A DNA stretch of 35,290 bases from a virus: positions 1 to 35,290 of the IMG/VR virus record IMGVR_UViG_3300025110_000052, one strand, 5' to 3'. A program made the position numbers and the translations under genes. The notes under the pieces were generated by a model that saw nothing but the letters and a program-made list of their open reading frames with translations, did no database searches and had not been told where the DNA came from. Below, one piece after another: positions 4,947-7,231 of this stretch. Positions within the stretch are counted from its first letter, which is position 1. Each line of letters begins with the position of its first letter.

Positions 4947-5358
4947 TGTTGATGTTGTTGGGGTTCCTGTCGCTCAGGGATCAATCAAAAGAACGCCTTT
5001 TGGAGTCGCTTATAGCAACGATAAAGAATTGAAATCTTGGCGACAAGATGTGATGACCTATTTGTTATCAGCTCGACCTGATGATTGGGAAATTGATTGC
5101 GCTTTTGCTGTTAGTTGTGAATTTCGTTTTATGCGACCTAAAGCGCATTTCGGGAAAAAAGGATTAAGGCCTAGCGCTCCTAGATATAAAACGACTAAAA
5201 GTGATACGGATAAATTAATAAGGTCAATAGGTGATTCGATACAACAATCAGGATTAGTTAGGGATGATTCACAGATTATTAAATGGGCAGCAAGTAAAAG
5301 ATATTGCGACACAGGTGAAAGTCCGGGTGCATCTATCACGCTAAGTAGTCAACCATGA
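4933..5358 (+). CDS. rusA: RusA-family Holliday junction resolvase
   Basis: RusA cuts four-way DNA junctions as a dimer. The 141 residues show the family order: V-x-G-x-P-x-x-QGS near residues 9-17, L-x-x-WR at 33-37, then TTKSDTDKL with D91 and D93, IGDSI with D101 and GLVRDDSQI with D111/D112. The D-x-D pair and the later DD correspond to the catalytic aspartates of E. coli RusA. Length matches the family (about 120-140). A strong GGAGG precedes ATG 4933, and an ATGA overlap couples it to the methyltransferase. It likely resolves replication/recombination intermediates before packaging. Confidence 0.9.
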   Translation: MKIISVDVVGVPVAQGSIKRTPFGVAYSNDKELKSWRQDVMTYLLSARPDDWEIDCAFAVSCEFRFMRPKAHFGKKGLRPSAPRYKTTKSDTDKLIRSIGDSIQQSGLVRDDSQIIKWAASKRYCDTGESPGASITLSSQP

Positions 5359-6125
5359 CGCTTAGACTTATCGACACCTTTAGCGGTATTGGCGGTTTTA
5401 GTTTCTCGGCGGAAAAATTAGTTGGAGGATTTAAAACAGTTGCATTTGTCGAGTGTGAACCATTTTGTCAAAAGGTATTAAAAAAGCATTGGCCCCATGT
5501 CGAACAATTCCATGACATCAGAACCTACAACCCCGAACCATATTCAGCAGACGTTATTTGTGGGGGATTTCCTTGCCAATCAATCTCAAATGCGGGCAAG
5601 CGCGAAGGGATCACAAAGACTTCACAATCTGGTTTGTGGTACGAACTCTATAGAATCATTTGCTTATTACAGCCGCGATACGTCGTCTTGGAAAACGTGT
5701 CAGCAATCCTTTCTAGAGGACTTGGAATCGTTCTCGGAAACTTGGCCGAGGCAGGGTATAACTGTGAATGGTGTTGCATACCAGCGACGTTTATTAAAGG
5801 AGCCTGTCACCAGAGAGATCGCTGGTGGCTTATTGCCTACAATCAAAGCGAGCGAACCGGGGAGTACAAGTCACGGTTACGGGGACAGTTTAAAGGAAGG
5901 GATTTGCAAACAAATAGGGATACCAACCAAGAAATATCCACTACTACCAACACCAAGGGCAGCGAAGGGAATGGAAATGAGACTATCGAAAAATATGGCA
6001 AAGCTAGAACACAAGAAATATTTAGAGACAGAAATGGCGGCAAGAATACATACACATGGCGAAACACACCTCACGAACTCAAAGGAGATTGGAGAGAATG
6101 GAGTATTAAACCCGTCATTTTGTAG
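5355..6125 (+). CDS. C5 cytosine DNA methyltransferase, missing its C-terminal motif by a frameshift
   Basis: C5 methyltransferases transfer a methyl group from SAM to cytosine. Visible motifs: I FSGIGG (residues 9-14), IV GGFPCQS with catalytic C74, VI ENV (113-115), VIII QRDRWW (153-158). Motifs IX-X are absent: the frame ends at TAG after WSIKPVIL. In the +1 frame directly beyond come NGVPSGLDR and KALGNSIVPQVA, the expected final motifs, ending at 6261. Removing one T from TTTT at 6118-6121 restores a single 301-residue enzyme. So this is a recent frameshift, a sequencing error in a homopolymer, or a recoding site. ATGA overlap with rusA. It would protect phage DNA from host restriction. 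Confidence 0.85.
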   Translation: MTLRLIDTFSGIGGFSFSAEKLVGGFKTVAFVECEPFCQKVLKKHWPHVEQFHDIRTYNPEPYSADVICGGFPCQSISNAGKREGITKTSQSGLWYELYRIICLLQPRYVVLENVSAILSRGLGIVLGNLAEAGYNCEWCCIPATFIKGACHQRDRWWLIAYNQSERTGEYKSRLRGQFKGRDLQTNRDTNQEISTTTNTKGSEGNGNETIEKYGKARTQEIFRDRNGGKNTYTWRNTPHELKGDWREWSIKPVIL

Positions 6126-6261
6126 AACTTCTAATGGGGTTCCCTCTGGGCTGGACAGAACTAAAAGATTGAAGGCATTAGGAAATAGCATTGTGCCTCA
6201 AGTTGCAGCGATACCACTACAAAGGGTTTTAGATTTAGAAAAACTTACTGTTTCTACTTAG
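5497..6261 (+). CDS. Overlapping +1-frame ORF: possible overprinted protein, carrying the methyltransferase C-terminus
   Basis: This frame is open for 254 codons across the methyltransferase. Its last 46 codons clearly encode methyltransferase motifs IX-X. Its earlier part contains strings I recall from separate phage and metagenomic proteins: RDTSSWKTCQQSFLEDLE, ETWPRQGITVNGVAYQR, GGLLPT and LLPTPRAAKG, ending in VLNPSF. One base further along, the third frame reads FVELLMGFPLGWTELKD then stop, which is the usual ending of those proteins. The same single T deletion that repairs the methyltransferase also joins LNPS to FVELLMGFP. It may be a genuine overprinted gene or merely the shadow that this enzyme family always throws. 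Confidence 0.4.
   Translation: MSNNSMTSEPTTPNHIQQTLFVGDFLANQSQMRASAKGSQRLHNLVCGTNSIESFAYYSRDTSSWKTCQQSFLEDLESFSETWPRQGITVNGVAYQRRLLKEPVTREIAGGLLPTIKASEPGSTSHGYGDSLKEGICKQIGIPTKKYPLLPTPRAAKGMEMRLSKNMAKLEHKKYLETEMAARIHTHGETHLTNSKEIGENGVLNPSFCRTSNGVPSGLDRTKRLKALGNSIVPQVAAIPLQRVLDLEKLTVST
6118..6121 (+). other. Frame-breaking TTTT run in the methyltransferase gene
   Basis: The sequence GTC ATT TTG TAG stops the methyltransferase frame. With three T's instead of four it would read V-I-C-R-T-S-N-G-V-P-S-G-L-D-R, the normal approach to motif X. The same change joins both overlapping proteins to their expected endings. Confidence 0.75.
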
Positions 6262-6267
6262 ACATAA

Positions 6268-6296
6268 TTGACAAGGGTCTACCCCTGATATATATT
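6268..6296 (+). promoter_or_regulatory. Strong sigma-70-like promoter with GGGTCTACCC operator in the spacer
   Basis: TTGACA (6268-6273), 17-base spacer, TATATT (6291-6296): the best promoter in the window. The operator GGGTCTACCC occupies 6275-6284, exactly where a bound repressor would block RNA polymerase. The companion motif (CTACTTAGACATA) lies at 6254-6266. It drives the 59-residue gene at 6334. Confidence 0.85.
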
Positions 6297-6333
6297 AAAG
6301 AAGTCGAGAGACACCCAATTGCAAAAGTTTTAA

Positions 6334-6513
6334 ATGACTTCTTCTTCACTTTCTCAAATGCCATATCATCCTCTACTTAAAGAGGCGAAGCAAATGAGAG
6401 AAAGCTTAAACGAGACTCAAGGATTACAAGCCAAGTTAAACCGCCAAGAAAAAGCAACTACATTTTTGTTTTACGCCTTTGCGATTTCTCTTTCAGCCGC
6501 CTTTATCTTTTAA
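6334..6513 (+). CDS. Small single-span membrane protein (59 residues)
   Basis: This ORF is short but bracketed by a near-consensus promoter and a terminator. The N-terminal two thirds are polar (MTSSSLSQMPYHPLLKEAKQ ... LNRQEKA) and the C-terminus is one hydrophobic segment, TTFLFYAFAISLSAAFIF, ending at the stop. This is the layout of a tail-anchored membrane peptide. It could act on the host envelope or be a small holin-like or exclusion protein; the sequence does not decide. Predicted leader is about 30 bases with no clear Shine-Dalgarno. Confidence 0.65.
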   Translation: MTSSSLSQMPYHPLLKEAKQMRESLNETQGLQAKLNRQEKATTFLFYAFAISLSAAFIF

Positions 6514-6564: not shown

Positions 6565-6759
6565 ATGATTACTATGAAAAAACTAAGTCAAGAAACAAGA
6601 AACAAGATCTTCAAAAGATGTAAAATTTCAATATTTTTAGGTGATGCTTCTGTTGGCTATGACTATTTGAAACTTGATGATGAAAGTCTTTTAAACAGCT
6701 ACGGATGGCTTCTCGAAAATTGGGATGAAAGCCTTGATTCGATCCCTGTTGACGATTAA
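6565..6759 (+). CDS. Small acidic hypothetical protein
   Basis: The product is 64 residues (or 61 from the ATG at 6574): a basic N-terminus (MKKLSQETRNKIFKRCK) and an acidic C-terminus (SLLNSYGWLLENWDESLDSI). No membrane segment. It has no obvious promoter of its own beyond read-through of the terminator at 6522. Function unknown; size and charge are those of phage early inhibitors, but that is only a guess. Confidence 0.55.
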   Translation: MITMKKLSQETRNKIFKRCKISIFLGDASVGYDYLKLDDESLLNSYGWLLENWDESLDSIPVDD

Positions 6760-6766
6760 TCCCAAC

Positions 6767-6838
6767 GTCGGGGAGCCTGCAATAAAACACCCGTGAGGGA
6801 AATACAAGGCACGTAATTGGCGTGATCCATCCCCCGAC
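6767..6838 (+). ncRNA. Candidate structured RNA: three-way junction of tRNA size
   Basis: A perfect 7-bp stem, GTCGGGG (6767-6773) with CCCCGAC (6832-6838), encloses 58 bases. Inside, GCCT (6775-6778) pairs with AGGC (6807-6810) and is capped by CCC-GTGA-GGG (6790-6799); next to it CACG (6810-6813) pairs with CGTG (6821-6824). No U-run follows, so it is not a simple terminator. Overall length is 72 bases, but there is no T-loop (TTCRANY) and no proper anticodon arm. It lies between two small genes, upstream of the promoter at 6868. It could be a riboswitch, ribozyme or RNA-end stabiliser. Confidence 0.5.
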
Positions 6839-6867: not shown

Positions 6868-6897
6868 TAGACGTAGGGGTCAACCCCAGTATATAAT
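6868..6897 (+). promoter_or_regulatory. Promoter with GGGTCAACCC operator
   Basis: A consensus -10 TATAAT (6892-6897) sits 18 bases after TAGACG (6868-6873). The operator GGGTCAACCC (6877-6886) fills the spacer and extends to GGGGTCAACCCC. The companion element CTATGTAGACGTA (6863-6875) overlaps the -35, and the 16-mer TACTATGTAGACGTAG here differs by one base from one upstream of the small terminase gene. Confidence 0.8.
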
Positions 6898-6927
6898 TAG
6901 AACATACACAAAGAGGAGACTCTTCCA

Positions 6928-7089
6928 ATGAAAATTCAACTACAAGCTTTAGAAAACGGTTTCGGTGTTGTAGATGGCGGCAAAACTTCTCAGCAATTAA
7001 ACGGTTATCGCTTTACTGTTGTTCGTTTTGAAGACAACGCCGTTTACCACTTCGCAACTACTAAGCAAATTAAAGAACTTTGGAAATAA
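6928..7089 (+). CDS. 53-residue hypothetical protein
   Basis: The ORF begins MKIQLQALENGFGVVDGGKT and ends TTKQIKELWK. It has a strong ribosome site (AGAGGAG, 6912-6918), a consensus -10 and operator upstream, and a terminator six bases after the stop, so it is a complete, independently controlled transcription unit despite its size. The composition (alternating hydrophobic residues, YRFTVVRFEDNAVYHF) suggests a small beta-rich fold. Being under the putative repressor's operator, it is a candidate host-takeover peptide. Confidence 0.75.
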   Translation: MKIQLQALENGFGVVDGGKTSQQLNGYRFTVVRFEDNAVYHFATTKQIKELWK

Positions 7090-7116: not shown

Positions 7117-7130
7117 GTCTGTTAATATTG

Positions 7131-7184
7131 TGGGCCAGCCAACCTTTCTCACTGGTGATGGGGAACACTCCAAACGCTGACCCA
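7131..7184 (+). ncRNA. Second candidate structured RNA
   Basis: TGGGCCAGC (7131-7139) pairs with GCTGACCCA (7176-7184) with one C-A mismatch. Inside are TGGGGAACACTCCA (7159-7172), a 5-bp hairpin with one G-T pair, and a small TCACTGGTGA hairpin (7149-7158). The element lies after a terminator and before a TTGACA at 7204, without a convincing ORF. Strand is not certain. Weaker than the 6767 element. Confidence 0.3.
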
Positions 7185-7231
7185 AACTAAAAATATCTCT
7201 ATATTGACAATACGCAAGCATAGTAAGTCTA

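Follow-up and report, generated by a model that had tools for sequence, protein, structure and literature searches.

A divergent sRNA-Xcc1-like RNA in the genome of a likely marine cyanophage and its putative pairing with the leaders of short phage genes

What is the compact 72-nt element found at positions 6767 to 6838, plus strand, of a virus record of 35,290 bases, and on what could it act? The whole record, called here the window, was analyzed; the RNA, the promoter-like sites, the leaders and the two ORFs behind these leaders all lie on its plus strand. It likely belongs to a marine picocyanobacterial phage, because its terminase is nearest to those of the Synechococcus siphoviruses S-CBS3 and S-CBS1 (about 42% identity). 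These two, the nearest cultured phages by terminase, contain neither the RNA nor the leaders described below, and no DNA-level relatives were found among cultured phages. An ORF at 6565-6759 stops 7 nt before the element, which in turn lies upstream of a promoter-like site of the ORF at 6928-7089. Neither a dedicated promoter nor a terminator for the RNA is visible in the window and, as an earlier reading made from the sequence only had remarked, no U-run follows position 6838. Two other features of the region were recorded. A C5 cytosine methyltransferase gene (5355-6261) is apparently split over two frames, with a Pfam match in 5355-6125 and a motif-X-like GNSIVPQ in the overlapping frame 5497-6261. 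On the other side, a conserved non-coding block, TTAATATTGTGGGCCAGC..GGTGATGGGGAACACTCC..GACCCA, lies 3' of the cassette genes, at 7122-7185 in the window and also in five other contigs (L002, L003, L005, L006 and L007).

Fold, conservation and homology of the RNA

Folding of the element gave a three-way junction of 72 nt in total, closed by a perfect 7-bp stem, P1 (GTCGGGG, 6767-6773, with CCCCGAC, 6832-6838), and holding two inner helices, just as the sequence-only reading had described it. The P2 arm (6776-6809) has a base CCU/AGG (6776-6778 with 6807-6809), a core AAUAAAACA/GAAAUA and an apical hairpin CCC-GUGA-GGG (6790-6799). P3 (6810-6824) is the hairpin CACG-UAAUUGG-CGUG, whose loop UAAUUGG (6814-6820) is the proposed antisense, or kissing, loop. 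The folding energy (-22.5 kcal/mol, z -1.8, with 11 of 200 shuffles equally good) is by itself only modestly unusual. The element goes beyond chance because it is conserved, in a covariance match and in kept pairing, and not because of its energy; on this comparative ground it was confirmed as a real, conserved RNA. Its size, its 7-bp closing stem and the 7-nt loop on one arm recall tRNA-like elements, but it has no cloverleaf, T-arm or anticodon arm and ARAGORN reported 0 genes, so that a tRNA identity was ruled out, in agreement with the first description. Nothing positive was found for an RNA decoy, which that description had allowed, or for a tRNA mimic.

At gathering thresholds no known Rfam family was identified in the window, but a relaxed search of the RNA with its surroundings, 701 bases in all, aligned it end to end with sRNA-Xcc1 (RF02221) at 35.9 bits (E 1.6e-4), 17 bits under the gathering cut-off of 53 bits; the nearest relative, in contig L017, scored 44.9 bits. 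A pattern search of IMG/VR based on the core yielded more than 100 relatives. From 22 members in proteobacterial phages, all outside the cyanophage group and with no cyanophage sequence among them, the covariance model R2 was built; it was used instead of a first model, made from an automatic alignment, that missed P1. In the R2 alignment, which has four helices, 97.3% of the cells are paired, doubly changed cells number 87 versus 27 after shuffling, and slid controls collapse. R2 matched exactly 6767-6838 over model positions 1 to 77 of 77, with 39.4 bits and an E-value of 2.9e-7 in the window (35 kb) or 1.2e-6 over 140 kb, and an independent model therefore gave exactly the same ends as those first noticed for the compact structured RNA. 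The same model matched eight cyanophage or freshwater sources at full length. The P1-P2-P3 layout and the AAUA..ACCC-GNRA-GGG..AAUA core of sRNA-Xcc1 are likewise present in the window RNA, the core at 6781-6804. Judged by these comparisons, the window RNA is a homologue of sRNA-Xcc1 that stands outside the formal family cut-off; compared with sRNA-Xcc1 it has shorter junctions, and its P2 arm varies among its relatives. A Chitinophaga genome contig with the subgroup pattern was rejected as one chance match, the other parts of the RNA being absent from it.

Across related contigs the stems keep pairing when their bases change. Pair 2 of P1 is U-A in 18 of 25 sequences, a compensated C-G in 6 and C.A in one, which leaves a single sequence when uncompensated P1 changes are looked for. 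The uncompensated stem changes that the sequence-only reading had named as its refutation thus did not occur, that one sequence apart. Shared ancestry inside one phage group inflates the counts of this analysis. One P2 pair occurs as A-U, C-G, G-C or U.G, a C-G pair of P3 becomes G.U, and the apical P2 hairpin goes from CCC-GUGA-GGG to CCCGCUGCAACGGG and longer. Marine contigs with the short form and those with a longer P2 have P1 and P3 in common; in the RNAs of L137-L158 the length of the P2 arm runs from about 35 to about 150 nt, an extra helix being optional, and P1 and P3 are fixed. The short-form relatives were found without use of the P3 loop, and this loop is identical in all the close marine relatives recovered in that way. 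Its invariance in the long-P2 homologues is partly imposed by the search pattern, which included the loop.

Complementarity between the P3 loop and mRNA leaders

The gene next downstream of the window RNA has no classic complement. In the marine contigs, however, sequences complementary to the loop were sought, and several leaders proved to carry CCAAUUAC immediately after a small hairpin. A search upstream of ORFs for GNRA hairpins gave a consistent leader made of a promoter, a few bases, the hairpin, (N)CCAAU and the start codon. The hairpin loop is mostly GAGA and the stems vary (GUC/GAC, GCC/GGC, GGGA/UCCC, AAGAG/CUCUU, AGCG/CGCU and ACCG/CGGU). The 5-mer most often present after GNRA hairpins that precede ORFs is CCAAT, in 20 of 84 deduplicated leaders against about 1.3 expected from base frequency. 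The window contains exactly two sites with a GAGA hairpin and CCAAT, one on each side of the RNA, a number that none of 300 shuffles reached (mean 0.013).

Leader 1 (6303-6322) lies behind a sigma-70-like promoter, TTGACA-17-TATATT (6268-6296, 11 of 12 consensus bases), and consists of a GTC-GAGA-GAC hairpin (6303-6312) and then CCAATTGC (6315-6322). It precedes a 59-aa ORF (6334-6513) whose product has a hydrophobic C-terminus. Pairing of GUAAUUGG in the RNA (6813-6820) with CCAAUUGC in this leader (6315-6322) extends over 8 bp, one of them a wobble, and homologous leaders in L005 and L142 carry CCAATTAC. Leader 2 (6911-6929) is an AAGAG-GAGA-CTCTT hairpin followed by CCAAT, which overlaps the ATG (6928-6930) of a 53-aa ORF (6928-7089); a promoter-like TAGACG-18-TATAAT (6868-6897) is placed upstream. 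In homologous leaders both strands of this stem change together (AGCG/CGCT, AACCG/CGGTT, ACCG/CGGT). The pairing of leader 2 with the loop amounts to only 5 bp, part of the start codon included. Neither ORF has a Pfam or PHROG match, and no antirepressor target was recognized in the window among the flanking ORFs. The earlier description of the element as standing between two independent small genes is literally true as to position, but the RNA is linked to the small genes on both sides by their complementary leaders. The spacers between -35 and -10 of the two promoter-like sites contain similar palindromes, AGGGTCTACCCCT in the first and GGGGTCAACCCC (6876-6887) in the second, which suggests a common repressor acting on both.

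In a general duplex score leader 2 reached -7.5 kcal/mol, worse than the mean of -10.7 kcal/mol, and in a plain duplex ranking of all window starts the 6334 leader came 13th of 243 and leader 2 was not singled out. The signal is carried by the leader motif and not by raw duplex energy. Loop and leader also change together. In L017 the loop is UGUGG and a leader GGGG-GAGA-CCCC-A-CCACACC precedes an ORF (UGUGG/CCACA), and in the freshwater contigs L129-L135 the loop is GCAGU and the leader of a 61-aa ORF reads GGGGA-GAGA-UCCCC-ACUGC (GCAGU/ACUGC), a site that was predicted from the loop before being looked for. When its contig was shuffled 400 times, each of these own-loop sites was reached 3 times, and foreign sites, those of the other lineages, are absent from each lineage. 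The leader sequence alone, used as a search pattern, retrieved 17 distinct contigs, all 17 of which carry the RNA. Counting against leader pairing, seven marine contigs (L138, L145, L148, L151, L152, L154 and L157) have another leader, CCGUG-GAGA-CACGG-CCUAUUAA-AUG and variants, in front of relatives of these short genes; it has no CCAAU box, yet the RNA is present in these contigs. On the whole, a pairing of the RNA with the leaders of short genes has good support from the sequences.

Concerning the wider family, the P3 loop of 91 distinct sRNA-Xcc1-like RNAs was compared with the region downstream, and the mean score was 17.5 versus 13.6 for swapped partners (z 15.7); the junction behind P3 gave a weaker signal (z 9). 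In 77 of the 91 the complementary site is located 0 to 12 nt before the ATG, on the Shine-Dalgarno region and thus at the ribosome binding site of the next gene, whereas the window RNA has its 5 bp at the downstream start codon and its 8 bp, with the wobble, in the upstream 6334 leader. The proteins encoded downstream (n=60, overlaps included) comprise Bro-N (14), P22_AR_C (13), KilA-N (13), Rha (7), P22_AR_N (6), ORF6N (6) and AntA (5), so that the genes behind the proteobacterial-phage relatives are often of antirepressor type. At L011, L030, L041 and about 90 further loci of proteobacterial phages the loop is complementary to the Shine-Dalgarno region of the gene that follows, in many cases an antirepressor gene, and such complementarity may explain the function of the entire Rfam family.

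Proposed mode of action and competing explanations

We propose, with a probability of roughly three in four, that the 72-nt element acts in trans as an antisense RNA on the sRNA-Xcc1 scaffold, whose loop pairs with CCAAU(UR) leaders and represses short genes. The structure, the homology and the loop-leader complementarity with its co-variation are observed. P1 would close the RNA, the P2 arm with its AAUA..ACCC-GNRA-GGG..AAUA core would shape it and P3 would present the 7-nt loop. Once expressed and processed, as we presume it to be, the RNA would kiss in vivo, and in trans, the CCAAU(UR) box that comes directly after the GAGA-tetraloop hairpin with which several short mRNAs begin, its targets in the window being the leaders of 6334-6513 and 6928-7089. 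The pairing would cover the translation start region and would in this way repress the short genes, for which a function is likewise presumed. The RNA could then be a second layer of control, probably beneath a repressor acting on the promoter palindromes.

The RNA might instead work in cis alone: as a structure in the 3'-UTR it would stabilise the upstream gene's mRNA, and the match between loop and leader would be incidental or ancestral. Such a role would fit the GC-rich closing stem, the failure to find a promoter of its own and the position of the RNA in marine phages, where it usually starts 3 to 8 nt past a stop codon; its frequent start a few bases past a stop makes processing from a longer transcript probable. 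However, stabilisation predicts neither a fixed loop nor loop-leader co-variation in three lineages, and in the freshwater relatives and in L164 the RNA comes after an intrinsic terminator and not after a gene, and we consider this explanation improbable. To a like degree we doubt that the pairing, although real, is activating, with the RNA opening the leader hairpin or protecting the 5' end of the mRNA. The GAGA hairpin does lie at the extreme 5' end, and that of leader 2 holds an SD-like GGAG, but the hairpin does not include the pairing box, which in leader 2 shares bases with the start codon, and the loops of the wider family lie over the Shine-Dalgarno itself, in the manner of known repressing antisense RNAs; repression is the likely outcome. 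It is quite unlikely that loop and CCAAU box are both protein sites rather than mutual partners: the fixed GAGA loop that the leader hairpins have in common suggests a binder, yet in L017 and in the freshwater phages box and loop change as complements, with GAGA kept as the hairpin loop. The least probable of all is a riboswitch that senses a ligand or a ribozyme that cleaves itself, the sequence-only suggestions that a compact three-way junction with an invariant core would favor. Rfam gave no match to a riboswitch or ribozyme family even when thresholds were relaxed, the window shows no expression platform and has an independent promoter-like site between the RNA and the next gene, and the RNA is most informative in its loop, which co-varies with mRNA leaders.

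Relation to known phage RNAs

The C4 RNA of phages P1 and P7 and the sar RNA of P22 silence antirepressors by pairing with the mRNA start region (PMC12197685). The window RNA resembles them as a small phage RNA predicted to pair near the start of phage mRNAs, but it has another fold and gave no Rfam covariance match to C4 antisense RNA (RF01695). Antirepressor targets like those of C4 and sar are also seen in the proteobacterial relatives, whereas the putative targets in the window are unannotated short ORFs. A parallel difference separates it from sRNA-Xcc1, whose target would be the Shine-Dalgarno of the single next gene and not a box behind a GAGA hairpin common to several short genes. Type I toxin-antitoxin systems also place an antisense RNA beside a short gene, and the 6334-6513 product has the hydrophobic end already mentioned, but the window RNA and its target do not lie on opposite strands, and it would have several unrelated targets. 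The microRNA-size RNA 24B_1 of Stx phages was considered as an sRNA-Xcc1 member and rejected. Its locus is L159:121-283 (KU238069), between lom and a gene for a 'host toxic membrane protein'. That locus is antisense to a region matching sok (RF01794, E 1.6e-6), upstream of the small toxic membrane protein gene, and 24B_1 may derive, as a fragment, from a Sok-like antisense RNA.

sRNA-Xcc1 was detected by Northern as a discrete transcript of about 88 nt (PMC2996969). It has also been considered a virulence or vesicle sRNA, for which host or plant targets were predicted (PMC12189769, PMC12444791); in those of the papers naming it that were consulted, no antisense mechanism of the kind proposed here was found. 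Somewhat less firmly than for the window RNA itself, we favor the view that sRNA-Xcc1 is a widespread, re-targetable phage antisense scaffold that one loop change would re-aim. In proteobacterial phages it would act one-to-one on the ribosome binding site of an antirepressor, and in cyanophages one-to-many on a shared hairpin-plus-box leader, where it would control, after transcription, a regulon of short genes that change fast. To sRNA-Xcc1, which carries annotations in many bacteria and phages, the complementarity would give a direct function, the control of phage antirepressors or, in cyanophages, of short genes. It would also provide an instance of an antisense RNA regulon, and one of co-evolution between loop and target, in marine cyanobacterial viruses.
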